NCBI GenBank assembly: GCA_017466325.1
Contig: JAFTUK010000009.1
Location: forward strand, 1-58,521
DNA from: Bacteroidaceae bacterium
GTDB taxonomy: Bacteria; Bacteroidota; Bacteroidia; Bacteroidales; Bacteroidaceae
DNA: 58,521 nt
Direction: 5' to 3'
Made by a program: the position numbers and the translations under genes. This document shows, one piece after another, positions 12,697-57,011 of this stretch. Positions within the stretch are counted from its first letter, which is position 1. Each line of letters begins with the position of its first letter. Below the pieces are notes generated by a model, which was given only the letters and a program-made list of their open reading frames with translations, was not told the origin of the DNA and did not search any database.

Positions 12697-14070
12697 ATGA
12701 ACATGGAGCCTAAGCACATACACATAAAGGACTACAACTATCCACTCCCTGACGAGAGGATAGCGAAATTCCCCCTGTCCCGACGGGACACAAGCAAATT
12801 GCTGGTGTACCGCCACGGGGACATCAGCCAGGACACATTCCATCACCTGCCCGACTATTTGCCCAAGGGTGCACTGATGATTTTCAACAACACCCGTGTG
12901 GTGAGGGCAAGGCTTCACTTCAGGAAGGCAGTGACGCCGTATTGCGAGGCGCCTCACAATACGTTGCAAGAGGCCTCGCAACACGTTGCGTCGACCGTCG
13001 CGTCGGGAGGCGTTTCCGACAAGCCCCAGGGGGCACTCATAGAGATATTCATCCTGGAGCCTGCCCTGCCTGCCGAGTATCAGGAAAACTTCCTCAGCCG
13101 AGGCCGGTGCTCGTGGTATTGCCTTGTGGGCAACCTGAAGAAGTGGAAGACAGGTTCCCTGCACCAGCAGATAAGGATTGGCGAAGAAACCGTAACCCTC
13201 TCTGCCACACGCGGCGAGGCGCACGGCACGAGCCACCAGATAGACTTCACATGGGACACCGGCCACACCTGGGCGGAAATCCTTGAAGCCACGGGCGAAC
13301 TGCCCATCCCTCCCTACCTGAACAGGAAGACTGAGCAGAGCGACCTCACCACCTACCAGACCGTCTACTCCAAGATAAAGGGCAGCGTGGCCGCCCCCAC
13401 GGCAGGCCTGCACTTCACACCCGAGGTGCTGGCAGAACTGGACAACCACGGCATAGAGCGCGAGGAGGTGACCCTGCACGTTGGTGCCGGCACCTTCAAA
13501 CCCGTCAAGAGCGAGGAGATTGGCGACCACGACATGCACACGGAGCACATTGCCGTGCACCGCACCACCATAGAAAGGCTCATAGCGCACGAAGGTGCCG
13601 CCATTGCCGTGGGAACAACCAGCGTGCGCACACTGGAGAGTCTCTACTACATGGGCATTTTGGCCATGCAGGGCAAGGAAGACCTGCATGTGGAGCAATG
13701 GATGCCATATTCGGAAACTACGACTTCAGAGGTGGATACCTGCCAGGCCCTGCAAGCCCTGCTGAAATACATGGACGAAAGGAATCTGGACATTCTGCAC
13801 TCCTCCACACAGATAATCATAGCACCGGGATACAAGTTCCGCATCGTCAGGATGATGGTAACCAACTTCCACCAGCCGCAGAGCACGCTCCTGCTCCTTG
13901 TCAGTGCCTTCGTACAGGGTAACTGGCGCAGCATCTACGACTACGCCCTGGAGAACGACTTCCGCTTCCTCTCCTATGGGGACAGCAGTTTGTTAGAAGG
14001 ACCCTCCCCCAACGGACCCTCCCCCAACCCCTCCACAAGGGAGGGGAGTGGTATGGACAAAAGCAAATAA
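12697..14070 (+). CDS. queA: S-adenosylmethionine:tRNA ribosyltransferase-isomerase, with repeat-derived insertions
   Basis: 457 residues. QueA moves the ribosyl part of SAM onto preQ1 in tRNA and isomerises it to epoxyqueuosine. Motifs: LPDERIAKFPLSRRDTSKLL, LMIFNNTRVVRARL, PTAGLHFTPEVLAEL, VTLHVGAGTFKPV, HMHTEH-like HDMHTEH and FHQPQSTLLLLVSAF. Relatives of this subtype run directly from 'RARxHFxK' into 'IEIFLLEP'. Here about 26-33 extra residues sit between (roughly 79-110), coded by a series of 20-24 bp palindromes. The C-terminus normally ends near FRFLSYGDSSLL; here it runs on as EGPSPNGPSPNPSTREG, coded by a 50-bp GC-rich palindromic element (13999-14048). The core enzyme looks intact. 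Confidence 0.9.
   Translation: MNMEPKHIHIKDYNYPLPDERIAKFPLSRRDTSKLLVYRHGDISQDTFHHLPDYLPKGALMIFNNTRVVRARLHFRKAVTPYCEAPHNTLQEASQHVASTVASGGVSDKPQGALIEIFILEPALPAEYQENFLSRGRCSWYCLVGNLKKWKTGSLHQQIRIGEETVTLSATRGEAHGTSHQIDFTWDTGHTWAEILEATGELPIPPYLNRKTEQSDLTTYQTVYSKIKGSVAAPTAGLHFTPEVLAELDNHGIEREEVTLHVGAGTFKPVKSEEIGDHDMHTEHIAVHRTTIERLIAHEGAAIAVGTTSVRTLESLYYMGILAMQGKEDLHVEQWMPYSETTTSEVDTCQALQALLKYMDERNLDILHSSTQIIIAPGYKFRIVRMMVTNFHQPQSTLLLLVSAFVQGNWRSIYDYALENDFRFLSYGDSSLLEGPSPNGPSPNPSTREGSGMDKSK
12939..13016. repeat. Series of 20-24 bp palindromes inside queA
   Basis: A 24-bp palindrome with arms GTATTGCGAGGC/GCCTCACAATAC (12939-12962) is followed at once by a 20-bp one beginning GTTGCAAGAGG (12963-12982) and then GC-rich sequence with GTCGACCGTCGCG. 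They encode the extra loop of the protein. Confidence 0.7.
13999..14048 (+). repeat. 50-bp GC-rich palindromic element, copy in the queA 3' end
   Basis: Two GGACCCTCCCCCAAC units followed by CCCCTCC-ACAAG-GGAGGGG. It aligns without gaps, in reverse orientation, to 14814-14863 (about 43 of 50 bases by eye). Confidence 0.85.
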
Positions 14071-14080
14071 TTGTTTTACT

Positions 14081-14479
14081 ATGGAACCTGATAATATCAA
14101 GAAAACAAACAAATATCACATATCCGAGTGGAAGAAGTATGCGCAATCCCTCACAGACAAATACGGGAAAGCCACAAACCTAATATGGATAAGCAAGAAA
14201 AGAAGAAAGTTCATATTGGATTTTGCATATGCACGGATACTGATCATCAACGATAACTTATACAAGTTCGCTGACATTACATCATGTAGGATAGAACAGG
14301 TACCAAGTACTGATAACGTTCTGGAGGAAACCGACACCAACCCTCTTGTATTGCTGATAGGCACAAATCGCAAAACCGAGATGCTTATGTCCATTACTGT
14401 TAGCGGCAAACAAACTGCCCATAGGATAAACAATCTGCTTCAGGAAATCATAAAGTCCAACAAACTATTTCATGAGTGA
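14081..14479 (+). CDS. Hypothetical protein, 132 residues
   Basis: Not recognised. From ATG 14081, ten bases after the queA stop. Charged N-terminus (MEPDNIKKTNKYHISEWKKYAQSL), then a strand-rich stretch (NLIWISKKRRKFILDFAYARILIINDNLYKFADITSCRI) and a later 'NPLVLLIGTNRKTEMLMSITVSG' region, ending in a helix. The alternation of strands with a final helix would fit a PH-like or similar small beta fold, but this is only an impression. No signal peptide or membrane segment. It overlaps the next gene by 8 bp, so the two are probably co-translated. Its base composition is more AT-rich than the flanking queA and Nudix genes. Confidence 0.65.
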   Translation: MEPDNIKKTNKYHISEWKKYAQSLTDKYGKATNLIWISKKRRKFILDFAYARILIINDNLYKFADITSCRIEQVPSTDNVLEETDTNPLVLLIGTNRKTEMLMSITVSGKQTAHRINNLLQEIIKSNKLFHE

Positions 14480-14750
14480 TTATATTGATGACATTTATGA
14501 ACGCTACATGCTCACTGGCGAAGGTGCTGAGTATTTCGAAGATTACACTAAGGAGGAAACAGAAGATTTCACAGAAGAGGAAGAAACAGAAATAGTAGCG
14601 GAGAATAGGGACCTTGATGCCCAGTTAGACGATGTAATTCGAATGCTAAAGCAACAAATAAAGGAAAAGGAACGTCTAATAAAGAAGGAGCAGCAGAATA
14701 AGAAGAAGAAGAAGAAGGAAAAGGAAAAAGCCAAAACGAAAAAAGAGTGA
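14472..14750 (+). CDS. Small charged protein with acidic and lysine-rich halves
   Basis: 92 residues, family not recognised. Residues 1-55 are very acidic (EYFEDYTKEETEDFTEEEETEIV). The middle 48-68 could form a coiled coil (LDAQLDDVIRMLKQQIKEKERLI). The C-terminus is almost only Lys/Glu/Gln (KKKKKKEKEKAKTKKE). It overlaps the 3' end of the gene at 14081 by 8 bp. It may be a partner protein or a nucleic-acid-binding or disordered tail protein; nothing in sequence decides this. Confidence 0.55.
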   Translation: MSDYIDDIYERYMLTGEGAEYFEDYTKEETEDFTEEEETEIVAENRDLDAQLDDVIRMLKQQIKEKERLIKKEQQNKKKKKKEKEKAKTKKE

Positions 14751-14770
14751 TTGTTGTCACGAATTAGAAT

Positions 14771-15346
14771 ATGACGAACGAGGATATTAAAGACCAGATC
14801 ACAGAACATCATACTCCCCTCCCCTGTGGAGGGGCTGGGGGTGGGTCCGCTGATGGCGGGTCCATTCTCCCCCTCGTTGACCCCGCCGGCAATGTCATTG
14901 GCAAAGCCACACGCACCGAATGCCACAACGGCTCCATGCTTCTGCATCCCGTGGTGCACCTGCATGTCTTCAATGAGAAAGGCGAACTCTACCTGCAGAA
15001 GCGCCCCATGTGGAAGGACATACAACCCGGCAAATGGGATACGGCCGTGGGTGGGCACGTGGACTTCGGCGAGGACATCCACACCGCACTCCTGCGAGAG
15101 GCACGCGAGGAACTGGGCATCAATGCCGAGGGTAGCGAACTGGTGCAGATGTATGAGTTCCACTCCGAACGCGAACACGAACTTGTCTATGCCCACAAAA
15201 TCGTCTACGACAAGGATATCATTCCCAGCGAGGAAACGGACGGCGGACGCTTCTGGACAATGCAGGAAATACGCGATGCCATCGGCCATGGCATACTGAC
15301 ACCCAACTTCGAACAGGAATTCATGCGGCTCTTTGAAAAGCAATAA
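14771..15346 (+). CDS. Nudix hydrolase with a repeat-derived N-terminal insertion
   Basis: 191 residues. Complete Nudix box at 95-117 (G-x5-E-x7-REARxELG: GGHVDFGEDIHTALLREARE then ELGI). The context 'GNVIGKATRTECHNGS...LHPVVHLHVFN...LYLQKRP' is that of YfcD/isopentenyl-diphosphate-isomerase-like Nudix proteins; the substrate is unknown. Relatives start close to the 'PLVDPAGNVIG' segment. Here residues about 15-31 (TPLPCGGAGGGSADGGS) are coded by a 50-bp GC-rich palindromic element. The actual start could therefore lie later, but no good ATG follows the element before the conserved core. Confidence 0.85.
   Translation: MTNEDIKDQITEHHTPLPCGGAGGGSADGGSILPLVDPAGNVIGKATRTECHNGSMLLHPVVHLHVFNEKGELYLQKRPMWKDIQPGKWDTAVGGHVDFGEDIHTALLREAREELGINAEGSELVQMYEFHSEREHELVYAHKIVYDKDIIPSEETDGGRFWTMQEIRDAIGHGILTPNFEQEFMRLFEKQ
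14814..14863 (-). repeat. 50-bp GC-rich palindromic element, copy in the Nudix gene 5' end
   Basis: CCCCTCC-CCTGT-GGAGGGG followed by CTGGGGGTGGGTCC; the reverse complement of the queA copy at about 86% identity by eye. It lies in frame inside the coding region. Confidence 0.85.
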
Positions 15347-15350
15347 CACG

Positions 15351-15430
15351 CCTAGGCCTTCTTAGGACACCCTAGGTCCTCCTAGGTTTTCCTAGAACCT
15401 CCTAGAACCTCCTAGTAATCCTATAAAACA
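15351..15430 (+). repeat. 10-bp phased CCTAGG array directly upstream of metY
   Basis: Eight consecutive 10-bp units in exact register: CCTAGGCCTT, CTTAGGACAC, CCTAGGTCCT, CCTAGGTTTT, CCTAGAACCT (twice), CCTAGTAATC and CTATAAAACA. The array ends 15 bp before the metY ATG with TCCTATAAAA. A similar array with the same ending lies before the GH20 gene. Confidence 0.85.
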
Positions 15431-15445
15431 CAAACCAACAACAAT

Positions 15446-16723
15446 ATGAAAAAGAACCTCGAAACTATCTGCATCCATGGCGGATGGAAGGCCACGAAGG
15501 GCGAACCCCAGCAGTTGCCCATCTACCAGAGTACCACCTTCCGCTATGAGACCAGCGACCAGATGGCCAAACTCTTCGACCTGGAAGATACCGGCTATTT
15601 CTATACCCGTCTGGCAAACCCCACCAACGATGCCGTAGCCAAGAAGATTGCCGCACTGGAAGGCGGCGTGGGCGCTGTGCTCACCTCATCCGGACAGGCA
15701 GCCAACTTCTACGCCATCTTCAACATCTGCCAGGCAGGCGACCATTTCATAACCTCCAACAACATCTATGGCGGCACATTCAACCTCTTCGGCGTAACGC
15801 TGAAGAAACTGGGCATAGAGTGCACCTTCATCGACCAGGACTGGGACGACGAGCGCATTGAAGCCGAGTTCCGCCCCAACACCAAGTGCTTCTTCGGCGA
15901 GACAATCAGCAACCCCGGTTGCCGCATCTTCGACATTGAGCGCTTTGCACGCATAGCACACAAGCATGGTGTACCCCTCATCGTGGACAACACCTTTGCT
16001 ACACCCATCAACTGCCGTCCCTTCGAGTGGGGTGCTGACATCGTCACACACTCCACCACCAAATACATGGACGGCCATGCCACACAGGTGGGCGGTTGCG
16101 TGGTGGATAGCGGCAACTTCGACTGGGAGGCCCAGCACGACAAGTTCACATGCCTGACCGAACCCGACGAGAGTTACCACGGACTTACCTACACCACCGC
16201 TTTCGGCAACATGGCCTACACCACTAAGATCGTTGTACAGTTGATGCGCGACCTGGGCAGCATACCCGCTCCCCAGAACTCCTTCCTGCTGAACATAGGT
16301 CTGGAGACCCTGGCCCTGCGCATGCGCCAGCATTGCGCCAATGCCCAGAAGGTGGCAGAGTGGCTGGAGAAGAACGAAAAGGTGGGTTGGGTAAGTTATG
16401 CCGGCCTGCCCAGCAACCAGGACCATGCCCTGGCACAGAAGTATCTGCCTGGCGGCACCTGCGGTGTAATAGCCTTCGGTTTGAAGGGCAGCCGTGAGGA
16501 GGCTATCCGCTTCATGGACAACCTGGACTTCATCTCCATCGTCACCCATGTGGCAGATGCCCGCACCTGCGTGCTGCATCCTGCCAGCCACACACACCGC
16601 CAGTTGTCTGAAGAACAACTGCGCGAGGCAGGCATCTCTCCCGACCTCGTTCGCCTCTCCGTTGGCATTGAGAACGTGGACGACATCATTGCCGACCTCC
16701 AGCAGGCCATGGACAAGATGTAA
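15446..16723 (+). CDS. metY: O-acetylhomoserine aminocarboxypropyltransferase (sulfhydrylase)
   Basis: 425 residues, PLP-dependent Cys/Met-metabolism family. Motifs: QLPIYQSTTFRYET, YTRLANPTNDAVAKKIAALEGG, LTSSGQAANFYAIFNI, VDNTFATP, and HSTTKYMDGHAT with PLP-binding Lys206. The C-terminal RLSVGIENVDDIIADL is also typical. Length and the sequence ISNPGCRIFDIERFARIAH fit MetY (O-acetylhomoserine + sulfide to homocysteine) better than cystathionine gamma-synthase, which is about 380 residues. Single gene with its own terminator at 16735. No TAnnTTTG promoter or SAM riboswitch is visible; instead the 10-bp CCTAGG array lies directly upstream. Confidence 0.88.
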   Translation: MKKNLETICIHGGWKATKGEPQQLPIYQSTTFRYETSDQMAKLFDLEDTGYFYTRLANPTNDAVAKKIAALEGGVGAVLTSSGQAANFYAIFNICQAGDHFITSNNIYGGTFNLFGVTLKKLGIECTFIDQDWDDERIEAEFRPNTKCFFGETISNPGCRIFDIERFARIAHKHGVPLIVDNTFATPINCRPFEWGADIVTHSTTKYMDGHATQVGGCVVDSGNFDWEAQHDKFTCLTEPDESYHGLTYTTAFGNMAYTTKIVVQLMRDLGSIPAPQNSFLLNIGLETLALRMRQHCANAQKVAEWLEKNEKVGWVSYAGLPSNQDHALAQKYLPGGTCGVIAFGLKGSREEAIRFMDNLDFISIVTHVADARTCVLHPASHTHRQLSEEQLREAGISPDLVRLSVGIENVDDIIADLQQAMDKM

Positions 16724-16734
16724 GGAATACTATC

Positions 16735-16772
16735 AGGCGAGTGCCCGACAGACGGAGCACTCGCCTTCCTTT
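16735..16772 (+). terminator. Terminator of metY
   Basis: AGGCGAGTGC pairs with GCACTCGCCT around a 12-base loop, followed by TCCTTTT. Confidence 0.85.
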
Positions 16773-16805
16773 TAGGACATACAGAAACCCTAAACTTATA
16801 CAATT

Positions 16806-18314
16806 ATGTTTAACAACTTTCACGGATTCCATCTTGTAGAGGAACTCCACAAAAGAAACCTGGAGAGGGCTGCCAAGCGACTGAACAGCAAGTTCTTCAA
16901 AATCCTGCTGGCCATTGCCGCCACCCTCACCATCTGGCTGCTGCCTGCCGAGTCATTCGGCATGGCTAACCTTACCGTTGTAGAGCAGCGCATCATCGGT
17001 GTTTTCGTATTTGCCACCCTGATGTGGCTCATGGAAGCCATCCCGGCATGGACCACCTCACTCATCGTGGTGGTGCTGCTCCTGTTCATGGTCTCCACCA
17101 GTGCGCTCACACCTTTTGTTGCCGGCTACGAAGCCGACCAGTTGGGTGTTATCCTCAAGTATGAGGACATCCTGCACTGCTTCGCCGATCCCATCATCAT
17201 GCTCTTCATCGGCGGTTTCATCCTGGCCATTGCTGCTACAAAGTATGGTCTGGACGCTACCATCGCACGCGTGCTGCTCAAGCCCTTCGGCACCCAGTCA
17301 CGCTTCGTCATGCTGGGCTTCATCATGGTAACAGGCCTGTTCTCCATGTTCGTCAGCAACACCGCCACCGCCGCCATGATGCTGGCCTTCCTGGCTCCCG
17401 TGCTCAAGGCCCTGCCTGCCGACGGCAAGGGTAAGATCGGTTTGGCCCTGTCCATCCCCGTGGCCGCCAATATCGGCGGTATGGCAACCCCCATCGGCAC
17501 ACCTCCCAACGGTATCGTGCTGAAGTACCTGAACGACCCTGCCGGCATGAACATGAACATCGGTTTCGGTGACTGGACAGCCTTCATGTTCCCCCTCACC
17601 ATACTGCTTCTGTTCCTGTCATGGATTATCCTGCTGAAGATGTTCCCCTTCAAGCAGAAGACCATCAACCTGGAAATCCCCGACAATTCACAGAAGGGCT
17701 GGCGCACAACATTGGTTTACATCACCTTCTTTGCCACCATCCTCATGTGGATGTTCGACAAGTACCTTGGCGTGAAGACCAATGCCGTGGCCATGTTCCC
17801 CGTGGCCGTGTTCTGTGCAACAGGCATCATTGACCGCCGCGACCTGGAGCAGATCAACTGGAGCGTCCTCTGGATGGTTGCAGGTGGCTTTGCCCTTGGC
17901 GTTGCCCTGAACAAGTCCGGTCTGGCCGCACACATGATTGATGCCATTCCCTTCAACACATGGTCACCCCTGCTTGTCATCATAGGTTCCGGTCTGGTAT
18001 GCTATGCTATGAGCAACTTCATCTCACACACCGCCACGGCAGCCCTTCTGGTGCCCATCCTGGCTGTTGTAGGTTTGAGCATGACCAACGAACTCTCCGG
18101 AGTAGGCGGCGTAAGCACCCTGCTCATCGGTGTTGCCCTCTGCTCTTCCGTTGCCATGGTTCTGCCCATCAGCACTCCTCCCAATGCCCTGGCTCATGCC
18201 ACCGGCCTCATCGAGCAGAAGAGCATGATGAAGGTAGGTCTAATCCTCGGTTTCATCAGCATAGCCATCGGTTATGTCCTGCTCATCTTCCTGGGCAGCA
18301 ACGGACTGATCTAA
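16806..18314 (+). CDS. SLC13/DASS-family sodium:dicarboxylate (divalent anion) symporter
   Basis: 502 residues with about eleven hydrophobic segments. Both helical-hairpin signatures are present: SNTATAAMMLAFLAPVL and SHTATAALLVPILAV, each with the S-N/H-T substrate/Na+ motif, plus ANIGGMATPIGTPPNGI and LPISTPPNALAHATGLI. Family members import succinate, malate, citrate or sulfate with Na+. In a succinate/propionate producer a dicarboxylate is the likely substrate, but this is inference. The N-terminal 30 residues are charged and cytoplasmic. It has its own terminator, and the metY terminator lies upstream, so it is probably a separate transcript. Confidence 0.88.
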   Translation: MFNNFHGFHLVEELHKRNLERAAKRLNSKFFKILLAIAATLTIWLLPAESFGMANLTVVEQRIIGVFVFATLMWLMEAIPAWTTSLIVVVLLLFMVSTSALTPFVAGYEADQLGVILKYEDILHCFADPIIMLFIGGFILAIAATKYGLDATIARVLLKPFGTQSRFVMLGFIMVTGLFSMFVSNTATAAMMLAFLAPVLKALPADGKGKIGLALSIPVAANIGGMATPIGTPPNGIVLKYLNDPAGMNMNIGFGDWTAFMFPLTILLLFLSWIILLKMFPFKQKTINLEIPDNSQKGWRTTLVYITFFATILMWMFDKYLGVKTNAVAMFPVAVFCATGIIDRRDLEQINWSVLWMVAGGFALGVALNKSGLAAHMIDAIPFNTWSPLLVIIGSGLVCYAMSNFISHTATAALLVPILAVVGLSMTNELSGVGGVSTLLIGVALCSSVAMVLPISTPPNALAHATGLIEQKSMMKVGLILGFISIAIGYVLLIFLGSNGLI

Positions 18315-18343
18315 GACTGACGTCAAATCACAACATAAGCAAG

Positions 18344-18378
18344 GAGGCGAACCGCCGTGGTTCGCCTCTTTGTTTTGT
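18344..18378 (+). terminator. Terminator of the SLC13 gene
   Basis: GAGGCGAACC, loop GCCGT, GGTTCGCCTC, then TTTGTTTTGT: a perfect 10-bp stem with T-rich tail. Confidence 0.9.
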
Positions 18379-18403
18379 ATGTATCGCCTCCCGTCATCGC
18401 GTC

Positions 18404-18492
18404 AGTTTCCTAACGAGGGAAACGCAGTCCTCTTAGTAGGAGGACTACAGTCCTTATAGTATGAGGATTGCAGTCCTCATAGTAAGAGGACT
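18404..18492. repeat. Four tandem hairpin units, period 22-23 bp
   Basis: Units begin AGTTTCC at 18404 and AGTCCT at 18426, 18449 and 18472. Each is a 20-21 bp hairpin (for example AGTCCTC...GAGGACT around TTAGTAG) plus a 2-base spacer. The loops keep a TAGTA-like core while stems differ and stay paired. It lies between the convergent SLC13 and GH20 genes. Confidence 0.85.
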
Positions 18493-18506
18493 GGTTCGCC
18501 AATGCG

Positions 18507-20168
18507 TCAACGCACCACTACTTCATCCAGGAACAACCATCCGCGGCGGGGTGTACGTTTGGCGGTAATGTGGAGATAGCGTGTCTTTGTCTGAGGTTCT
18601 AAGTCAAGTTTGTAGGGCTGGACAACAAAGGGCACATCGGCCAAAGTGGAATCCATCAACTGTATATAAGACACGGAGGTTCCGTCAGCATCGGCCTTGT
18701 CCATTGGGGCCACACTTACCTCGGCTGGGAGGAATATCTCAGGACCAAGGATTTGCAGGAAGGAAAGTTCCACGGATGACACCTCGCACTCCTGACCAAG
18801 ATCCAGCACCAGGTCGATGTCGCGGATAAAGCCCTGCCAACGCTGGTCGTTATTGTTCCAGGTACCGCATACTCCATCGGTGAGGGTGGAATCGCCACCG
18901 GCTTGGTAGAAAGAGTTGTAGGGACTGTTGTATATCACCTTGGCGCCACGGGCCAGATGCTCAACGGGCTGGAGGGATTCGCGGCGCTGGCCATACTCAT
19001 TGCACAGGTCAAAGGCATTGATGCCGGCCTGGCGCATGCTGTCGGCCACGCCAACTGCCCACTGGTGGAACTCCTCATAGGAACGTGTGCGTCCCAATCC
19101 ACGCTCGGCAATGGCCAGGGCACGGGGCCATATCTGGTACTCGAGGTTCTCGGGAGTGGGCACATACTCGGTGAAGATACATGCCTGTATGCCCAAGAGA
19201 CGTCCTGTGGAGGTTTCCTGTGCGGAAAGAGCACTGTCCAAAGGCACCTCGTAGATGTGCGAAAGTGGACGGTAGCCGCCCATCGCCTCGGGCTGTCCCG
19301 TGGGACGGTCCTGGTAACTGTCCAGATAGCACCAGTTGCTGGGGCACATGATTACGTCGTGTCCCAGACGGATAGCCTCGGTGGCCGTATCGGGGTTGCG
19401 CCACACCATTATTATCTGTGCACTGTCGGCAGGGTTGTCGGTCAGCCCCTCGTCCCAAACTATCATGCGGCGGCCAAGGTCCTCCACAATCTTCTGTATA
19501 CGGCGCATTGCCTCGGATTGCAGACCCTTCTGAGTGGCTGACTCATCGCCACCCACGTGGATGTAGGGAGAAGGGAAAATGTCTGCCACCTCGGCAAGGA
19601 CATCGGCCATGAACATATATGTGCTGTCCTTGCTCATGTCCATTTCGGCATGGTTATAGCCCACCCAAGGATAGGCGGCAACCACCTCCTCGCTATGGGC
19701 GGGGAACTCTATCTCGGGCACAATGGTGATGCCGCGCTCCTGGGCATAGGCAACCAGTTGGCGCATCTCCTCCTGAGTGTAGTAACCGCCAAAGCCGTTC
19801 TGCGCATCAGAGAAAGCAGGGGCAAACCACTCATTGCCCTTGGTGTCCTCGGTGGCACGGGGGCGCTGTGCCCACCATTCCTTCCAGGTCTGGTGTGTGC
19901 GCCATGCGCCAAGGTCGGTAAGACGGGGATACTTCTTTATCTCCAGGCGCCATCCTGCCGCATCGGTAAGATGCAGGTGCAGGACGTTGAGCCCATAGTT
20001 GCCCATCAGGTCTATCTGGCGCTTCAACACGTCCATGGGATAGAAATGGCGGCTCACATCAATCATCAGTCCACGCCACTCCATCTGAGCCGTTTCCTCC
20101 TGATTGGCCTTTGTGCATGAGAACAGGCACACGGCAAGCACAAGTATTGAAAGGATATGCTTCTTCAT
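18507..20168 (-). CDS. GH20 beta-N-acetylhexosaminidase, lipoprotein
   Basis: 553 residues. Lipoprotein signal peptide with lipobox LFSC (Cys18). The GH20 catalytic barrel starts almost at once: EWRGLMIDVSRHFYPMDVLK, LHLHLTDAAGWRLEI, VPEIEFPAHSEE, then HVGGDES with the catalytic Asp208-Glu209 pair, and ending near residue 400. The usual N-terminal GH20b domain is missing or very short. The C-terminal 130 residues look like an F5/8-type (CBM32-like) beta sandwich (RDIDLVLDLGQECEVSSVEL... RYLHITAKRTP...LFLDEVVV). It removes terminal GlcNAc/GalNAc from glycans such as mucin at the cell surface or in the periplasm. The nearby fucosidase and GH2 genes fit host-glycan breakdown. A CCTAGG array precedes the start. 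Confidence 0.92.
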   Translation of the reverse strand: MKKHILSILVLAVCLFSCTKANQEETAQMEWRGLMIDVSRHFYPMDVLKRQIDLMGNYGLNVLHLHLTDAAGWRLEIKKYPRLTDLGAWRTHQTWKEWWAQRPRATEDTKGNEWFAPAFSDAQNGFGGYYTQEEMRQLVAYAQERGITIVPEIEFPAHSEEVVAAYPWVGYNHAEMDMSKDSTYMFMADVLAEVADIFPSPYIHVGGDESATQKGLQSEAMRRIQKIVEDLGRRMIVWDEGLTDNPADSAQIIMVWRNPDTATEAIRLGHDVIMCPSNWCYLDSYQDRPTGQPEAMGGYRPLSHIYEVPLDSALSAQETSTGRLLGIQACIFTEYVPTPENLEYQIWPRALAIAERGLGRTRSYEEFHQWAVGVADSMRQAGINAFDLCNEYGQRRESLQPVEHLARGAKVIYNSPYNSFYQAGGDSTLTDGVCGTWNNNDQRWQGFIRDIDLVLDLGQECEVSSVELSFLQILGPEIFLPAEVSVAPMDKADADGTSVSYIQLMDSTLADVPFVVQPYKLDLEPQTKTRYLHITAKRTPRRGWLFLDEVVVR

Positions 20169-20183
20169 TGTCTGGTATTATTT

Positions 20184-20243
20184 TATAGGAAACCCCAGGA
20201 CAACCTAGGATTTCCTAGGACATCCTAGGGGATTCCTATAGTT
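20184..20243 (-). repeat. 10-bp phased CCTAGG array directly upstream of the GH20 gene
   Basis: Six 10-bp units in register on the plus strand: TATAGGAAAC, CCCAGGACAA, CCTAGGATTT, CCTAGGACAT, CCTAGGGGAT and TCCTATAGTT. Read toward the GH20 start it ends in TCCTATAAAA about 16 bp before the ATG, as in the metY leader. Confidence 0.85.
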
Positions 20244-20270
20244 TTCTATTGTTTCCTGTCTCTTCTTATC

Positions 20271-20930
20271 TCAGCGCCGTGGCACACCGCCCTTGAAGGA
20301 ACCGTGCACCTCGCATACACCTGCCTCCTCTACAATCTGCATGTAGTTCTCTGCACTCACTCCGGCACCTGCAAGGATGCAGAGCCTTCCGGCAGAGGCC
20401 TCAACGAGTGTCTTCAGCATGGGAATGCCCTTGACTGCCGAGGGTTCCTGACCCGATGTCAGCAGACGGTTGCAACCCATGGCAATGATTTCCTCCAAGG
20501 CTTGCATGGGATTGCGGCAAACGTCGAAAGCACGATGGAAGGTGATGCCAAGGTCGGCCTTGCCATGCTCCTTCTGCCACTCACGCGCCACGGCTATCCA
20601 TCGGGTACACATAGGCACATCCAGATCGCCGTCCTTGGTCAAGGCACCGATGACAATGCCATCGGCACCCTCTTCCAAGGCCATGACTATCTCGTCTGCC
20701 ATCTGTCCGGCCTCTGTCTCGTTGTAAACAAAGTCGCCCTCACGGGAACGGATGAGCACATGCACCACCACACCTGCAGCATGGCACATGGACACAGCCT
20801 GACGTATCTCCTCCCTCGTGGGAGTCAGCCCATCCAGTTCCAGGGCTGTACACAATTCTATGCGGTCTGCCCCACCTTCTATGGCACGCCTTACACTGGC
20901 AATGTCGGGACAACATACTTCTATCTTCAT
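20271..20930 (-). CDS. cutC: CutC-family protein
   Basis: 219 residues, a TIM-barrel member of PF03932. Conserved start KIEVCCPDIASVRRAIEGGADRIELC, then LDGLTPT, VHVLIRSREGDFVYN, GIVIGAL, ITFHRAFDV and RLLTSGQEPSA. CutC was first linked to copper tolerance in E. coli, but its biochemical function is disputed and some members may act elsewhere. It is slightly short of the usual 240 residues, losing some of the C-terminus. It lies 100 bp after GH20 in reading order upstream of it, separated by the CCTAGG array, so co-transcription with GH20 is uncertain. Confidence 0.9.
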   Translation of the reverse strand: MKIEVCCPDIASVRRAIEGGADRIELCTALELDGLTPTREEIRQAVSMCHAAGVVVHVLIRSREGDFVYNETEAGQMADEIVMALEEGADGIVIGALTKDGDLDVPMCTRWIAVAREWQKEHGKADLGITFHRAFDVCRNPMQALEEIIAMGCNRLLTSGQEPSAVKGIPMLKTLVEASAGRLCILAGAGVSAENYMQIVEEAGVCEVHGSFKGGVPRR

Positions 20931-20998: not shown

Positions 20999-21150
20999 GG
21001 ATGAACGTTTAACGTTTAACGATGACAGGAAAGCAGGGACGCTGCTGCAGCGTCCGCTTAGTTCACGCATAGTTTATTGTTCTCGGACGCTACACGCAGC
21101 GTCCCTACTTTACTTACTCGCAGTTTTCCGTTTTCCGTTTTCACATTTCC
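20999..21150. repeat. Mosaic of palindromes and short repeats between cutC and the fucosidase gene
   Basis: In order: CGTTTAACGTTTAACG, a 19-bp palindrome with arms GGACGCTGC/GCAGCGTCC (21037-21055), an imperfect one GGACGCT...AGCGTCC (21085-21104) followed by CCTAC, then TACTCGCAGTTTTCCG and TTTTCCG repeats. The same modules recur on the other side of the fucosidase gene. Confidence 0.75.
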
Positions 21151-21154
21151 AATT

Positions 21155-22500: not shown

Positions 22501-22795
22501 GCCCCTCCCCCATGCCCCTCCCAGTGAGGGAGGGAAGCATAATGCTTTGGGGATGAGGTTAGTATTTGTTTGTTATTTTGTAGGGACTCGGCATGCCGAG
22601 TCCGCTTCTACTCTGTTTTTCGGACACGGCATGCCGTGTCCCTACCATGCTCTCGGCTACTCGCAGGTTTCCGATTTAAGCCGACTGCGTCGTCTTGAAT
22701 CTGCTTCCGCTCGGCAGAGTAAATAATTATTTTCTCTGCTCTCGCTTACTCGCAGGTTTCAGTTTTCCGTTTTCACCTTTCCGTTTTCCGCTCGT
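22501..22795. repeat. Repeat-filled gap between GH29 and the transglutaminase-like gene
   Basis: No gene seen. It holds a GC-rich hairpin (CCCCTCCC...GAGGGAGGG, 22501-22537), a perfect 20-bp palindrome GGACTCGGCATGCCGAGTCC (22584-22603), a second GGACACGGCATGCCGTGTCC (22622-22641) followed by CCTAC, then two copies of CTACTCGCAGGTTTC-like sequence and TTTTCCGTTTTC repeats up to the stop of the next gene. Confidence 0.8.
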
Positions 22796-24810: not shown

Positions 24811-24855
24811 TTATTAAAGTCCTTAAAGTCTTTAAGGTCACTAAGGTCACTAAAG
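24811..24855 (-). repeat. 9-bp phased array directly upstream of the transglutaminase-like gene
   Basis: Five 9-bp units in register on the plus strand: TTATTAAAG, TCCTTAAAG, TCTTTAAGG, TCACTAAGG and TCACTAAAG. The array ends 21 bp before the start codon on the minus strand. Confidence 0.75.
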
Positions 24856-36060: not shown

Positions 36061-36447
36061 CACTTTGAATTAACTTTCCTTGCCTTCTCCGTTCCAAAAC
36101 TATATTTTCTACGTTCCAAAACTATATTAATAACTATAATATTATAATATAATACTATATATAATTATTATAATAATATATTAATTATTAAGTATATATA
36201 TATATAATATAATAGTAATAAAACTATATAATATCATATAACAAGAAACAGCAACGAATGCAAAACAAATAAACTGAAACTGAGCTATCTGAGCTATCCC
36301 TGGCGTGATGCCCTCCGTAAGTGATATAGCAACAAAACAAACTGATTAACTGATTATCTGATTATCTGATTACCATCACATACCCAAAGAACCTACACCA
36401 TAGCAATCAATTAATCAGTTAATCAGTTAAAAAAACAACGGCAACCC
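36061..36447. other. Non-coding AT-rich region with short repeats
   Basis: No gene seen. GTTCCAAAACTATAT occurs twice (36091, 36113). 36121-36240 is almost pure A/T with TATATA and TAATATTA runs. TGAGCTATC is repeated near 36280. Four 8-bp units CTGATTA(A/T/C) at 36342-36373 are mirrored by two TTAATCAG units at 36411-36426. Confidence 0.8.
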
Positions 36448-38723: not shown

Positions 38724-40116
38724 AGCGCAGACGCTCGCCCGTGGCGGGGTGTGTGAACGAGAGTTCCCCGGCATGGAGCATGAGGCGCTTGGCACTCTGC
38801 TTGCCATAGAGCCGGTCGCCCTGTATGGGGTTGCCCAATCCCTCTGCCATGTGCACACGCAACTGATGTGTACGCCCCGTGTGGGGAGTGAGCAGAAGGT
38901 GCGCATGCCCGTCCACATTTTCCATCACCCGGTATCTCGTCATGGCACTTTTGCCATGCTCCATATCCACCATTTGGCGCGGACGGTTGTCCACATCGGG
39001 ACGCAAGGGCAGACGAATTTCACCCTCCTGACCAACGGGCATTTCCCTCTCGAGCATGGCTTCATAACGTTTCTCAACCTCGCGCCTTTCAAACTGGGCA
39101 CGGAGTTCCGCCTGAACCTTGGCACTCTTGGCAAGAACAAGCAAACCGCTCGTATCCTGGTCAAGACGATGCACCGACAGGCATCCCGTTATGCTCTCCA
39201 CCGAAGGCAGGAACTCCTTGCCAGGTACGGAGAGGAGGCCCGATGGTTTGTTGACCACCACCAAGGCATCGTCTTCGTAGACGGTGGACAGACGCGACAC
39301 CAAATCCATATAGTTTCCCAAGCGAGGGTCGGCCTCCACGTCCATGCCACGGAGCATGTGGGCAAGTATCGGCCGGCAGCGTCCCGTGCAAGGGGGATAG
39401 AACTTGTCATCGGCCGAGTTCCATTCGGCAATGGCCAAGGGACGTATGCCACGGCGGAAAGCCTCCTGAAGGAGTTTCGGCGCACAACAATCCCCTGCCC
39501 CTCCAGGAGGCACGGCAGGAGCGAAGATGTCCAGCAGGTTGGCACTCTCGCCACGGATGTTCTTCACCGAATAACGGGCGAACAACCAGCGCTGAAGGGC
39601 ACGGGAACGTTCCTTACGCTCGTGGCGAAGGTCACACACCTCGCGTGGCGATGCCTGCCCCGATTCCAAGTAACGGTTTATGGCGCTTATCTCTGCCTCC
39701 TCCCGAAGGAAATAACGGCCCTCGCCCTCCTGTATGTCAAAGACAGGAGGCACGAACCCCGGTTGGCACGTCTTGCCCCCGAGGGTTCCGGAGAAAGCGG
39801 CAAGGTAAGAGACGGACCCCTCCCCAACGGACCCTCCCCCCTGCCCCTCCACAAGGGAGGGGAGTATAATTTTCTGCTGATGTGGGCACAAGTCGGTTGT
39901 AACCACTCCCTCCCCTTGTGGGAGGGTTGGGGAGGGGTCCGTTACTCCCCTCCCTTGTGGAGGGTCTTGAGGTCCTTCGTTGGTGGGTCCATAAATCAAC
40001 ACCCCAAACATCTTGCCCTCCTCCACGTCCTTGCGCCAGGCAGGGACGGAGAGGTAGTATTCCCTGACCCTTTCCATGGCAGGGAGGCAACGCTCGTCCA
40101 GGGTGTAGATTTTCAT
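38701..40116 (-). CDS. RluA-family pseudouridine synthase with repeat-derived insertion
   Basis: 471 residues from ATG 40116, which overlaps the WbqC-like stop (ATGA). The C-terminal catalytic domain has VVNKPSGLLSVPG, HRLDQDTSGLLVLAKS with the catalytic Asp, and PHTGRTHQLRVH and GDRLYG. The long N-terminal half (MKIYTLDERCLPAMERVREYY ... EGRYFLREEAEISAINRYLE) is that of a Bacteroidetes subgroup of RluA proteins; residues 250-330 include a Cys-rich APKLLQEAF...CTGRC part. Residues about 43-101 are coded by three GC-rich palindromic elements (39814-39990), between 'MFGVLIY' and 'VSYLAAFSGTL', segments adjacent in relatives. It isomerises uridines in rRNA or tRNA; the target is unknown. An upstream start at 40521 would read through the WbqC gene. 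Confidence 0.87.
   Translation of the reverse strand: MKIYTLDERCLPAMERVREYYLSVPAWRKDVEEGKMFGVLIYGPTNEGPQDPPQGRGVTDPSPTLPQGEGVVTTDLCPHQQKIILPSLVEGQGGGSVGEGSVSYLAAFSGTLGGKTCQPGFVPPVFDIQEGEGRYFLREEAEISAINRYLESGQASPREVCDLRHERKERSRALQRWLFARYSVKNIRGESANLLDIFAPAVPPGGAGDCCAPKLLQEAFRRGIRPLAIAEWNSADDKFYPPCTGRCRPILAHMLRGMDVEADPRLGNYMDLVSRLSTVYEDDALVVVNKPSGLLSVPGKEFLPSVESITGCLSVHRLDQDTSGLLVLAKSAKVQAELRAQFERREVEKRYEAMLEREMPVGQEGEIRLPLRPDVDNRPRQMVDMEHGKSAMTRYRVMENVDGHAHLLLTPHTGRTHQLRVHMAEGLGNPIQGDRLYGKQSAKRLMLHAGELSFTHPATGERLRFTCTPEW
39814..39990. repeat. Three GC-rich palindromic elements inside rluA
   Basis: Copy a at 39814-39864 (same orientation as the queA copy, one base longer). Copies b at 39906-39940 and c at 39945-39990 are in the opposite orientation and shorter or diverged. 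Each has the CCCTCCC-TTGT-GGGAGGG-like core next to GGTCC. Confidence 0.85.
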
Positions 40117-47493: not shown

Positions 47494-47506
47494 TTTTACA
47501 TGACTC

Positions 47507-51547: not shown

Positions 51548-51582
51548 ATTAATTTGTTATTTAGGTTATATGCGTTTCGTTG

Positions 51583-51590
51583 CAAAGATA
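51583..51590 (-). promoter_or_regulatory. -7 element of the GH2 promoter
   Basis: Minus-strand TATCTTTG matches TAnnTTTG, 36 bp before the start at 51547. Confidence 0.55.
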
Positions 51591-51682
51591 GCAATAATAT
51601 TTTGAATTCCATAGTATTTCGCCAAGTCTTTAGCGCCTCTTCGGGCTTTCGTCGGCAAAAATGCGGTATTTCCTGCCTGAGT

Positions 51683-52849: not shown

Positions 52850-52870
52850 GGTGTCATGGTTGTTTGCATG

Positions 52871-52878
52871 CAAAGATA
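52871..52878 (-). promoter_or_regulatory. -7 element of the regulator promoter
   Basis: Minus-strand TATCTTTG matches TAnnTTTG, 21 bp before the start at 52849. Confidence 0.6.
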
Positions 52879-52964
52879 GGCAAAAAGGAGCAAATAACCT
52901 TTCCTCGGGGCGTGAAAAAGGTGTGACAAGATTGTGACAAGCGTGACAACAGCGCCTTTCATCT

Positions 52965-53048
52965 TTGTTGTCGCGTCAACACTGTTGTGTTGTTGTATCA
53001 ACACTGCTGTGTTGTCGCATCAACACTGCTCTGTTGATAGTACAACAA
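52965..53048. repeat. 84-bp triple-hairpin element, copy 1
   Basis: Bounded by TTGTTG and CAACAA, with three CAACACTG...TGTTG hairpins starting at 52977, 52999 and 53021 (22-bp period). It aligns without gaps to 56928-57011 at about three quarters identity by eye. It lies in the gap between the regulator and the gene at 53189; the rest of this gap holds a small hairpin ACCGCCACTGGCGGT at 53121-53135. Confidence 0.85.
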
Positions 53049-53188
53049 AAATATACCACCGTGGAGGCAAAGGTCAGAACACTCGCCTCCCCTACTCCGT
53101 CCTCGGTAGCAGCAAAATGAACCGCCACTGGCGGTAATTTTTATCGCCGAGGGAGGCGGACATCACCGCCACCGCCATCCCACCTCCA

Positions 53189-54019
53189 TTAATCGTAGGC
53201 ATGATAACGGGCGTCGTCTACTTCATGATAATCCCTCAACCAGGCAACGGCATCATCTGAACCAAGGTCCGCAGCAAATTCCATGTACTTGGCAACCAGT
53301 TCAAGTTTTTCCGGATGCTGTTCCTCCATGGACTCGGCCAAACGCAGTGCGGCATCCTTGTCCGTGAGGCTGTCTGCCAGATCTCGTGAGTCAACGATAT
53401 ACCTGACAGGCCTTTCTGCCATATCGTCCCATTCATTGATGATGGTCGAGTATGACTCAAGTTCAAACATGGTCTCCCCTACAGTCACGGGGGCTTTAAA
53501 GAGACTGACATTTATATACTCGGCTGCCGTGGCAGAAGGAGGAGACAGGGTTATGCTCTCGTCCGACATAAACCTATATTCAAAATCCAGCCATGGCAAT
53601 GGGTTGCCATCTATCTGTGTACGCAATGTGGATAGATTTACTTTATCCGTAAATTCATCTCTCATAATCATTGCAGTCCCACCTTCGTGGGTTGCCAGCA
53701 AAGCATCCCATCGGTCCTGCATATATGGAATGAAGGTGACGTCCACTTCGCAACACGCATAACTCAGACCTATAGAACCAGAACGCCATCTGTTGGGTTT
53801 GTCTATCGGATATCGTTTTGAACCATATTTGCTGACAACCTCTACATACCCTTCATCAGTGTGGGCCTTTACGTAGATTCGATCGACATATTCCTGGTAT
53901 GAACGCGAGAAGAGGAGGTCCACACGGATGCCCTTCTCCGTTTTCTCAGGAGAAACATAATAATTGTCGCAGGAATAATTGCGGTCTGCCCTTGTATCTA
54001 AAGAAACGTGTAAAATCAT
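53189..54019 (-). CDS. Hypothetical protein partnered with a DUF1963 protein
   Basis: 276 residues from ATG 54019. Family not recognised. The N-terminal part is strand-rich (YSCDNYYVSPEKTEKGIRVDLLF). A middle portion lists NLSTLRTQIDGNPLPWLDFEYRFM. The last 60 residues are helical, with a Sel1/TPR-like unit (EKLELVAKYMEFAADLGSDDAVAWLRDYHEVDD). No signal peptide. It starts 11 bp after the DUF1963 gene ends, so the two are co-transcribed. A start further upstream at a TTG (54118) would extend into the neighbouring gene and is rejected. Confidence 0.7.
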   Translation of the reverse strand: MILHVSLDTRADRNYSCDNYYVSPEKTEKGIRVDLLFSRSYQEYVDRIYVKAHTDEGYVEVVSKYGSKRYPIDKPNRWRSGSIGLSYACCEVDVTFIPYMQDRWDALLATHEGGTAMIMRDEFTDKVNLSTLRTQIDGNPLPWLDFEYRFMSDESITLSPPSATAAEYINVSLFKAPVTVGETMFELESYSTIINEWDDMAERPVRYIVDSRDLADSLTDKDAALRLAESMEEQHPEKLELVAKYMEFAADLGSDDAVAWLRDYHEVDDARYHAYD

Positions 54020-54030
54020 ATCACATAAAT

Positions 54031-54705
54031 TTAAGTTGAAAGGATTATTGCACGCACATCGGAAAAATCTCCGGCCCTCAATGCCTCGGGAGCAATAATG
54101 AAGCACAATGCCCCACAATCCACGAAATTATAATTATAGCCTTCCCCCTCCATAGAGTCCATCATCAGAAGGAGTTCCCATCCGGCACACTCCTCCGGCC
54201 ATGTCTCCCATTCAAGCCGGTCGGTCTTGCCGAACAATTGCAGTTCTGGAACGCCCTGGCCCTTCGGTTTCTCCTTGGTAAAGTACAAGGGGATAGGTTT
54301 GGCCTCGTCCTCTTCGCAGATGTAGGCACTGGTGCATTGTAGTTCGTCCAATCGTTCCTCCGGAACAAATATGACACGACACACCCTATTGTCGCTGGGA
54401 TGAAGCGATATGTTCGGACAGTCCCAATCTCCCCGGTAATAAGCCACGTCGGCAAAGAAGAGCAACAGTCCGTCCTGCCCGGCAAATGGCCATTTCTCGC
54501 AGATGTGGGGTTCTGTATGTTTCCGTATTTCGCCTATGCGCAACTGGCAAATCAGGGTCAAGGCATAACGTTCGCCATCCTCCTCTATCGTGGGCACCAT
54601 CACATCCTCGGGCAAATCAGCATAACCGAACCAGTGAGATTCCCCCAAAGCAGGCTCCCCCTTGCCAAGAAGTATATATATGGGTGGGTTCGCAGTCTCT
54701 TTCAC
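54031..54705 (-). CDS. DUF1963 (YwqG-like) family protein
   Basis: 224 residues. Family pattern: FGYADLPEDV, LTLICQLRIGEI, GLLLFFAD, a central acidic region, WELLLMMDSMEGEGYNYNFVDCGALCFIIAPEAL and DFSDVRAIIL. Members of DUF1963 are soluble proteins of unknown role. In some genomes they sit beside polymorphic toxins or secretion-system effectors and are suggested to act as immunity proteins. Here no toxin is visible. Upstream gene of the pair with 53189. Confidence 0.82.
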   Translation of the reverse strand: MKETANPPIYILLGKGEPALGESHWFGYADLPEDVMVPTIEEDGERYALTLICQLRIGEIRKHTEPHICEKWPFAGQDGLLLFFADVAYYRGDWDCPNISLHPSDNRVCRVIFVPEERLDELQCTSAYICEEDEAKPIPLYFTKEKPKGQGVPELQLFGKTDRLEWETWPEECAGWELLLMMDSMEGEGYNYNFVDCGALCFIIAPEALRAGDFSDVRAIILST

Positions 54706-54829
54706 GTGTTACTGTTAATTACGGTTCGCCGGGAACGCTTTCCCCGAAAAAATGGCTATAGAAAAGATGCCCAGCCTTGGAAAGAAAACGGTTCAAGGAA
54801 ATATAGAAAAGGAGAAAGTGGGAAATGTA

Positions 54830-55570
54830 TTATTCCCCACCTAAAACCTTCTCCATGAAGTATGGCAACTGTACTCGCCACCAGCACCAGTCGTGGTCCA
54901 CGTCGAAGCCCCAGTAGTCCATGTTGGCGGGGATGCCGCGCTGGCACAGTACGGTGTCCAGTGCGCGTGTGCTTTCCAGCAGTTCGTCCTCCCACTTGCC
55001 CTGACCCACGCAGATGTAGATGTTGCGCTTCTTGTAGAGGTCCATCCAGGGATGGTCGGCAGGCATTTCGCGCAGGAAGTCGATGGGCGAGTTCATGAAC
55101 GTGAGTTCGTCGCTGTACATGGGGAAGCCGTAGCCGGCAGTGTACAGGCCGCTCAGTGCTATGACGGAATCAAAGATGTCCGGACGGCGGAAGAAGAAGT
55201 TGCCGGCATGGAAAGCACCCATGGAACATCCCGTAACGATGAAGGTCTCTGTCTTGCGCTTGCGCACCTCGGGGATGAGTTCCTCGGTAACATAGTGATA
55301 CCAGCGCTCGTGCTGCTCTATGCGCCAACGGTTGTCAGCAGAGCGGTTGCTCCACGTCTCGCCGTCTATGCCGTCCACGCAGATGGCACGTATCTCGCCC
55401 TTTTCTATCCAGGGTGCGAGGACGTCTATCATGCCGAAGTTCTCGAAGTCGAAGTAGCGGCCGTCCTGCGAGGGAAAGATGAGGACGGGGCGTCCCTTCT
55501 TGCCGTATGTCTTGTACTCCATCTCGCGCTGGAGATGATTGCTGAAATGTTTGTTGTATTGTCCTTCCAT
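54830..55570 (-). CDS. Esterase-D-like alpha/beta hydrolase
   Basis: 246 residues, no signal peptide. PF00756-like core: GRPVLIFPSQDGRYFDFENFGM, CVDGIDGETW, nucleophile elbow TGCSMGAFHAG (Ser near 145), SDSVIALSGLY-like DSVIALSGLYTAG, and a terminal DHDWCWWRVQLPYFMEK with the catalytic His. It lies 76 bp after the ATP-grasp gene, same strand. Ester, amide or thioester substrates are possible. Probably works with the ATP-grasp ligase on one pathway, but this is inferred from position only. Confidence 0.85.
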   Translation of the reverse strand: MEGQYNKHFSNHLQREMEYKTYGKKGRPVLIFPSQDGRYFDFENFGMIDVLAPWIEKGEIRAICVDGIDGETWSNRSADNRWRIEQHERWYHYVTEELIPEVRKRKTETFIVTGCSMGAFHAGNFFFRRPDIFDSVIALSGLYTAGYGFPMYSDELTFMNSPIDFLREMPADHPWMDLYKKRNIYICVGQGKWEDELLESTRALDTVLCQRGIPANMDYWGFDVDHDWCWWRVQLPYFMEKVLGGE

Positions 55571-55599
55571 TATATAATATAAGGTTAGTGAAAAAGTTT

Positions 55600-55629
55600 A
55601 GGCAGGTCCGGAGTGAGGGGAACCTGCCT
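55600..55629 (-). terminator. Hairpin between the ATP-grasp and esterase genes
   Basis: AGGCAGGT pairs with ACCTGCCT; on the minus strand it is followed by AAACTTTTT. It may partly end the ATP-grasp transcript. Confidence 0.6.
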
Positions 55630-55646
55630 ATGTGTTTTTGGTGTCG

Positions 55647-56843
55647 TTACTTTCTGTTGCAAACGTCGTAAAGGAACTCGTCGCGCTCCCATTCCGTGCG
55701 GAAGCGTGCAATGTAGGCATAGTCGCCCATGGCAGGTGCCAGAGCCTTGTCTATGTTCGGGGTCATCTTCATGGCGTATGCATACTTGTCCAGTATCTGT
55801 GCGTCGTTCAGGTGATACTCCACGCCTGAGCGTCGGCCGGCATAGACGCAGAAGTAGTCGTCGTTGGTGTCGGGCTGCTTGCGCTGGTCAAATGCCACCA
55901 TGTCTGCCCAGATCTGATATACGTCCACGTTGTGTGCATAGTTGATCATGTCGGGGGTGTAGCCACCACCGGGACGCATGTTTACCTCCAGGGCCACGAA
56001 GTCGCCCTCGTTGCCGAGGCCGCGGTGGGCGCGTCCCAACTGGAAGAACTCCAGGTGCACGAAACGGCTCTTCACGCCGAATGCCTTGATGGTCTGGCGC
56101 CCCCAGAAACGCAGGTTCTCGTTGATGTGCTGCTGGACGTAGTAGGTGCTGTCGAGATTGTAGTTTACGATGTCCGAAATGGACGGGGGACATACGCACA
56201 TGCTCTCGAACATGGGTTCGCCCTTGGAGTTGATGATGGCATCGTAGGTGCAGATGTTGCCGGTGACGAACTCCTCGATGACATATTCGTGGATGTGCGG
56301 AGTGTTGTTGAGGAACTCGCGCAATGCCCATTCGCTCTCAAGTTTGTGCGTACCGCCGGAACCCACGCCTACATCAGGCTTGGCAAAGAGGGGGTAGCCT
56401 GCTTCGTAGGCAAACTTCAGTATGTTGTCCAGGCTGTCGCTTGCCTTTATCTGGCGTGCGGTACGTATGCCGCCGGCAGCATAGTACTTCTTCATCTCGG
56501 ACTTCTCCTTGATGCTGTCTATCTTGTCCGTCTTGATGCCGGTATTCACGTTGAAGTCGGTGCGCAGGCGTGCATCCTGCTCCAGCCAGTACTCGTTGTT
56601 GCTCTCTATCCAGTCTATGCGTCCGTACTTGGCGGCAAAGTGTGCCACGGCACGATACACCTGGTCATAGTCTTCCATGTTGTTGACACGGTAATACTCG
56701 GTAAGACTTTCCCTGAGACGGTTGTCCAGGTTGTCGTACGGAGCATCGCCAATACCAAATACAGTTACACCATTCCTCTTCAGTGCTGCACAGAAGTTCC
56801 AGTAGTTTTCCGGAAAGTTGGGGGAAATGAAAATGAAGTTCAT
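55647..56843 (-). CDS. ATP-grasp carboxylate-amine ligase-like protein
   Basis: 398 residues, no signal peptide. ATP-grasp fold similar to CarB/biotin-carboxylase-type ligases: preATP domain (FIFISPNFPENYWNFC), an ATP-binding region GYPLFAKPDVGVGSGGTHKL with the lysine and glycine loop, YVIEEFVTGNICTYDAII, and the metal-binding FVALEVNMRPGGGYTPDMINYA (Glu and Asn). Such enzymes join a carboxylate to an amine via acyl phosphate, making small peptides or amides. The product is unknown. First gene before the esterase at 54830, divergent from the S51-like peptidase at 57117. Confidence 0.85.
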   Translation of the reverse strand: MNFIFISPNFPENYWNFCAALKRNGVTVFGIGDAPYDNLDNRLRESLTEYYRVNNMEDYDQVYRAVAHFAAKYGRIDWIESNNEYWLEQDARLRTDFNVNTGIKTDKIDSIKEKSEMKKYYAAGGIRTARQIKASDSLDNILKFAYEAGYPLFAKPDVGVGSGGTHKLESEWALREFLNNTPHIHEYVIEEFVTGNICTYDAIINSKGEPMFESMCVCPPSISDIVNYNLDSTYYVQQHINENLRFWGRQTIKAFGVKSRFVHLEFFQLGRAHRGLGNEGDFVALEVNMRPGGGYTPDMINYAHNVDVYQIWADMVAFDQRKQPDTNDDYFCVYAGRRSGVEYHLNDAQILDKYAYAMKMTPNIDKALAPAMGDYAYIARFRTEWERDEFLYDVCNRK

Positions 56844-56927
56844 AATAGGTATGTTATTTGGTGGATACTAAGGAAACTGCCCATGGACTCTGGCGTATGG
56901 CGACTAACGCCCACCGTTGTCATTCTT

Positions 56928-57011
56928 TTGTTGCTACGCCAACACTTCACTGTTGCTGCGTCAACACTGCAGTGTTGCCACGACAACACTGTTTTGTCGC
57001 TACGACAACAA
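56928..57011. repeat. 84-bp triple-hairpin element, copy 2
   Basis: Bounded by TTGTTG and CAACAA, with CAACACT repeats at 56940, 56962 and 56984 (22-bp period). It sits in the divergent gap between the ATP-grasp and S51 genes. Stem differences from copy 1 are mostly paired. Confidence 0.85.

Follow-up and report, generated by a model that had tools for sequence, protein, structure and literature searches.

The window analysed here, a stretch of 58,521 nucleotides that constitutes contig C5 of a 2.59-Mb Bacteroidaceae genome, carries short tandem arrays whose units resemble each other from locus to locus in length and symmetry more than in sequence, and thereby raises the question of what these arrays have in common. 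A sequence-only reading of the window had proposed a single structural rule, namely units of one or two helical turns, usually palindromic, with unrelated sequences at each locus. The data establish an excess of 22- and 23-bp arrays over chance, a sharp period, a narrow copy number, dispersed sequence families and, at one site, persistence of the array with turnover of its bases.

Excess over chance, period and placement

Arrays were detected with Tandem Repeats Finder (TRF) in a 1.57-Mb sample of the window's own genome, in 0.78 Mb of G041, a close relative, in 0.26 Mb of another relative, G042, and in 78 public loci around queA (L033–L110). G041 is the genome of L031, the record nearest in QueA (97% identity), a metagenome-assembled Bacteroidaceae genome from a ruminant gut. 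Genes were called with a simple codon-usage script, so that gap borders are approximate, and a residual 3-bp periodicity between genes indicates that some coding DNA was missed. The chance baseline was provided by five dinucleotide shuffles of 693 gaps of the own genome.

The intergenic DNA of the own sample contains 50 arrays of period 22 and 10 of period 23, against shuffle means of 0.4 and 0. The excess recurs in G041 (16 and 13 arrays; shuffled, 0 and 0.6) and in the public loci (22 and 7; shuffled, 0.2 and 0), where a 22/23-bp array is present at 28 of the 78 loci, coding ones included. The tandem arrays noted in the window are thus real, since TRF finds them far above the shuffles. The copy number of 72 own 22/23-bp arrays is 2.84 ± 0.67. 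An Escherichia coli control showed no array in one 50-kb stretch with 5,989 bp of intergenic DNA, which is too small to weigh. CRISPR arrays were considered and ruled out, as the units abut and spacers are absent.

Autocorrelation of the own 1.57 Mb shows a clear excess at lags 9 (z 10.1) and 22 (z 7.6) but hardly any at lags 10 (z 2.8) and 11 (z 1.6), with lag 10 lying below its neighbours. In the relatives, the lag-22 excess is found within every identity band (z 2.2 to 3.1). The short arrays of the own sample have units of 7 bp (37 arrays), 8 bp (12) and 9 bp (29), which are not whole turns. With little or no excess at lags 10 and 11, the proposed rule of one or two helical turns fails, and helical phasing at 10–11 bp is not supported as a general principle.

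Two classes can be distinguished by placement. The 22/23-bp arrays are located mostly at gene 3′ ends: among gaps of at least 60 bp, such an array is present in 26 of the 99 that are convergent, in 33 of the 445 co-directional ones and in 4 of the 120 that are divergent, and the own sample has one period-22 array within genes against 60 between them. The 7–9-bp arrays are a second class, linked to the spaces between co-directional genes. Among 43 arrays of 7–8 bp with known context, 41 lie in co-directional gaps and 19 have a stop codon no more than 15 nt away; arrays of 9/10 bp and multiples thereof are in co-directional gaps in 46 of 53 cases.

Persistence of the period at one site

The sharpest view of how such arrays evolve comes from a single gap (the key gap) flanked by genes that, to judge from their sequences, are presumably a DUF2851-like and a thioesterase gene. 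It was chosen because L084 and L102 both had arrays there, and it was fetched from the 20 genomes that follow in order of similarity, 16 of which have a period-22 array, one of them being L084 itself. L289, the same genome as L084, was dropped from the species count and kept in the mean of the copy number. An array of about three units is present in 17 of 21 species, or in 15 of 19 among the species not used for the choice. The best lag is 22 in all 17 arrays, and the copy number is 3.09 ± 0.37 (18 rows, duplicate included). Unit identity within an array is 0.83 (lowest 0.57). Between species, the best identity is 0.54, compared with 0.48 for shuffled units and 0.80 for the coding DNA just upstream, and 92 of 136 species pairs fall at or below the 95% point of the null. 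A process that keeps the geometry while the bases change is supported at this one site. As judged by eye, the own genome has 9-bp repeats instead in the gap that precedes the presumed thioesterase gene.

The symmetric positions of the key-gap units also covary. The pair count covers 24 units from the 8 of 17 arrays that have a central CATG, a choice that favours alignable arrays, and gives the same result with or without one L102 unit: 81.9% of positions are paired against 69.3%, and the covariation score is 0.367 against 0.184, with 0 of 500 shuffles reaching either value. Because the rows are related, and the units of one array are not independent of each other, the shuffles overstate this evidence; the slid controls, which score at most 0.131, do not.

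Symmetry of the units

In the own genome, 31 of 72 arrays of 22/23 bp are palindromic at p ≤ 0.05 relative to shuffled units. Palindromy is therefore common, as had been described, but not universal, and since, at the same threshold, symmetry is also seen in 12 of the 24 own arrays whose period is 24–60, it is not special to 22 bp. Symmetric positions have changed less than intergenic flanks (10/283 versus 120/1649, p 0.02), a count that uses stems from either genome, that with stems from one genome (5/287) being biased. The loops of neighbouring units match better directly (0.66) than inverted (0.46); TRF-selected arrays favour direct copies, so that the global palindromes noted by eye are not established as a rule.

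Mutation or constraint

We tentatively regard the 22/23-bp arrays as DNA minisatellites of the REP/BIME/BrickBuilt kind that evolve in concert under a constraint on their spacing, an interpretation to which we assign somewhat less than an even chance; the constraint, and a cellular reader of the arrays, are what we infer. An array would be composed of about three units, often dyad-symmetric, which slippage, unequal exchange or gene conversion would keep alike. Imperfect symmetry may be repaired by template switching between the arms or kept by selection, families would spread through the genome by copying, and both the spacing and the approximate copy number would be held in place by constraint. 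The simplest reader might be a DNA-binding or DNA-architectural protein that tolerates base changes and recognises dyads two turns apart.

Several results weigh against this interpretation. Persistence with turnover was seen at one chosen site, and the key gap of 10 further genomes of the genus has a 22-bp array in 0/10 and 7–8-bp arrays in 3/10. The flanks of the key gap are about as poorly alignable (0.47–0.49 vs 0.43–0.44) and turn over much as the arrays do, so that the array bases are replaced no faster or slower than the rest of the gap, whereas the period is retained. Only 10 of the 17 key-gap arrays are significantly palindromic. A second site lies 3′ of a gene presumed from its sequence to be pflA-like; the own genome has an array of family F1 there (see below), and a 22/23-bp array is found in 0 of 10 relatives. 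Across 90 orthologous classes comprising 366 gaps, 21–24-bp arrays coincide in 4 pairs compared with 2.66 expected, which is not above chance (131 of 500). Double changes within own arrays are compensatory at about chance (51 cells versus 129 with one pair broken), and relative to the unpaired positions of the arrays (13/248, p 0.40) the symmetric ones (10/283) are not less changed. Finally, the search for a mobiliser gave no Y1/RAYT match (see below).

The arrays might instead be purely mutational, that is, hairpin-prone DNA that is duplicated by replication slippage, symmetrised by template switching and, being functionless, persists where it is harmless, at gene 3′ ends. Concerted units and the lack of overall positional conservation of the 21–24-bp arrays are in line with such an origin, and their scarcity in divergent gaps is what purifying selection against insertions would produce. 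The 7–9-bp arrays, which in the 366 orthologous gaps coincide in 14 pairs versus 5.46 (2 of 500) and often differ in sequence, likewise turn over at shared sites. Free slippage, however, should let both period and copy number drift, and the key gap has a best lag of 22 in 17/17 arrays with about three copies each. A purely mutational origin is possible but rather unlikely in our judgement. At the other extreme, the arrays could represent a sequence-independent element of the genome. What is passed on and selected would then be the place, the 22-bp spacing and a copy number of about three, whereas the bases are free and are rewritten in each species by concerted evolution, so that cells would read the geometry of the DNA (dyads two turns apart) and not a motif. 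We consider this unlikely.

The distinction is of consequence. If spacing is selected, what reads DNA geometry in Bacteroidales becomes directly testable; if it is not, the arrays plainly document, in natural genomes, the effect of slippage and template switching on intergenic DNA.

Sequence families and mobility

The 22/23-bp arrays of the own genome belong to several dispersed families, F1–F8, which were defined by motif inspection because an automatic grouping of the units joined 62 of 81 arrays into a single cluster, partly as several of these have an outer CAGT/ACTG frame in common. Counted with four inner bases paired, AGT-N14-ACT is present 27 times in intergenic DNA, and AGT-N15-ACT 10 times, 8 of them with the arm CCTC. 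Other spacings are scarce (2, 1, 0 and 0 occurrences for N10–N13; 0, 2, 1 and 5 for N16–N19). The paired arms themselves vary and include GTTG, ACTC, TTCC and TTTC besides CCTC.

Of the 101 genomes of the genus, 3 contain family F1, namely the own genome and two near relatives, and other species have 22-bp arrays of a different sequence. No strong motif is common to the species, the best 4-mer in the relatives having a z of 3.0 and occurring in 3 of 39 arrays. Repeats in bacteria are usually detected through a sequence that they share. Here the property common across species is period plus symmetry, and sequence searches accordingly find a family in three genomes while arrays of this kind occur in many more. 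The view that the arrays do not derive from a single element by copying is supported, and the likeness across species lies in geometry, chiefly the 22-bp period. That their sequences are unrelated holds among families and species but not throughout, as the arrays at 52966 and 18425 have kin elsewhere. The idea of a process that generates and maintains arrays agrees with units that are alike within arrays and differ between species; it is incomplete, because many own 22/23-bp arrays fall into dispersed families, so that copying also plays a part.

Dispersed families would also be produced by miniature mobile palindromic elements, such as REP/BIME or a BrickBuilt-like miniature inverted-repeat transposable element (MITE), moved by a transposase. 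Element-like ends were noted by eye in some F1 arrays (TTTTGTTG...CAACAAAA) and some F2 arrays (CCTCGG...CCGAGG); no common leader or tail was seen by eye in the F1/F2 flanks, and no IS5 search was made. Comparison of 136 orthologous gaps between the own genome and G041 shows a 22/23-bp array in both at 8 gaps (recognisably the same in 7), in G041 only at two, which speaks for mobility, and in the own genome only at none. Against it, these two pairs of occupied and empty gaps, inspected by eye, show no clean borders, duplications or clean insertion, and the own genome, which is 88% complete, has 0 matches to the Y1/RAYT transposase (PF01797), present in 5 of 14 control genomes. Mobility would, moreover, leave the in-place turnover at the key gap unexplained, and we regard it as quite improbable. 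In the eighth gap occupied in both genomes, 56844–57116, the own genome has F1, whereas the 23-bp array of G041 belongs to a different family; G042 again has F1.

DNA or RNA

The location at 3′ ends suggests transcribed hairpins that would serve as terminators, stabilisers or attenuators, and 8 of 10 folded arrays are indeed more stable as RNA than their shuffles (z −2.6 to −10.1), some forming one long hairpin. Against such elements, in co-directional gaps the mismatches on the transcribed strand are A-C in 44 and G-T in 28 cases, with no excess of G-U (not clear at the key gap, with 10 G-U and 7 A-C in 23 units), and no U tract follows the arrays, the next 12 nt containing 3.0 T versus 3.3 in the control (n = 93). 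L285 and L287 have no stable fold (z +0.7 and −0.3), the window has 0 Rfam matches at the gathering score, and the array at 18425 comes after a terminator-like hairpin of the ordinary kind, at about 18347–18375. RNA structure as the selected property is not supported, the evidence arguing against it, and RNA elements are a very improbable explanation of the arrays.

Arrays of the window

The arrays of 8 to 23 bp listed here were found by TRF; other repeats of the window are given beside them. Two arrays belong to family F1 (TGTTG-6-CAACA): 52966–53047, with 3.2 units of 22 bp, and 56929–57010, with 3.7 units of 22 bp in a divergent gap. The first, used as a query, gave 21 matches at 18 places in the own genome (17 others) and has an RNA fold z of −5.4. 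The 23-bp array at 18425–18492 (3.0 units, convergent gap) belongs to F5 (AGTCCTC...GAGGACT); it has kin at C7 73905 and C11 59990, and is conserved in G041. At 12942–12990 (+ strand), a 22-bp array of 2.2 units lies inside the coding sequence of queA (gene 12697–14070, PF02547) and resembles CGCAACACG/CGAGGCG arrays at other loci. A period-22 array of different sequence is found at this site in L032 and L035, and by eye only in L033; L034, L036, L038 and L039 have none. Related GGACCCTCCCC-type repeats occur at 13995–14053, 14813–14863 and 39814–39943, and are mutually inverted around two small genes (14081–14479 and 14472–14750); the stretch between the inverted repeats is missing from the close relative L031. 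The 22-bp direct repeat at 36085–36128 (2.0 units) has a consensus symmetry of only 0.55 and adjoins AT-rich repeats; a very AT-rich block of irregular repeats occupies 36118–36241 within a gap of 738 bp.

Shorter units are found at 15346–15415, in a co-directional gap, where CCTAGG recurs each 10 bp with varying 4-bp spacers (TRF periods 20 and 10 bp); in the orthologous gap of L031, CCTAGG is kept and the spacers are altered. A second CCTAGG-type array (10/20 bp) lies at 20186–20238, 18 bp upstream of the start codon of the minus-strand gene 18507–20168. A 9-bp array (TTAAAGTCC / TAAGGTCAC) is located at 24814–24853, and an 8-bp array, AACTGATT, at 36340–36430 (8–9 bp over 36280–36430), with the inverted form AATCAGTT about 30 bp further. 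AAAACGG heptamer arrays on the coding strand follow stop codons directly at 21123–21142, at 22757–22790 and in many own gaps, sometimes with an inverted CCGTTTT array further on. Long palindromes are dispersed in gaps (21000–21110, 22600–22680), for example GGACGCTGC...GCAGCGTCC and GGACTCGGCATGCCGAGTCC, and are present in G041 too. A 69-bp tandem repeat of 4.8 units at 317–647 overlaps a minus-strand open reading frame.

Relation to known systems

Searches of the open-access literature listed no paper that describes arrays of this kind in the group. Palindromic elements of Rickettsia are repeats tolerated in frame within genes, as is the repeat in queA, but here the units are 22-bp tandem units, and only one array of the window is clearly coding. 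The met boxes of MetJ consist of short palindromes set side by side at a constant distance, and one protein reads one sequence in them; the arrays share the adjacency and fixed spacing, and differ in that their sequences vary among loci and species.

The REP/BIME repeats with GTAG and CGTC tags are short palindromic extragenic repeats that lie mostly 3′ of genes, in both orientations and in some cases inside genes (PMC3733652). The arrays described here are likewise dispersed short palindromes, chiefly extragenic and 3′ of genes; unlike the REP/BIME of that account, they are tandem without spacers at a fixed 22–23 bp, and the own genome has no RAYT match. BrickBuilt of Porphyromonas gingivalis is described as a MITE/minisatellite of one sequence family with 1 to 22.8 tandem units of 23 bp, a leader and a tail, and IS5-like terminal repeats; tandem repeats of 22 and 41 nt are mentioned for strain W83 as well (PMC4596501). 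It shares with our arrays the bacterial order, tandem 22–23-bp units, intergenic placement at several dispersed loci and predicted stem-loops, while our arrays differ in comprising several families of about three units and in keeping their period across species despite the turnover of sequence. REP/BIME repeats and the BrickBuilt minisatellite are the closest known kinds.

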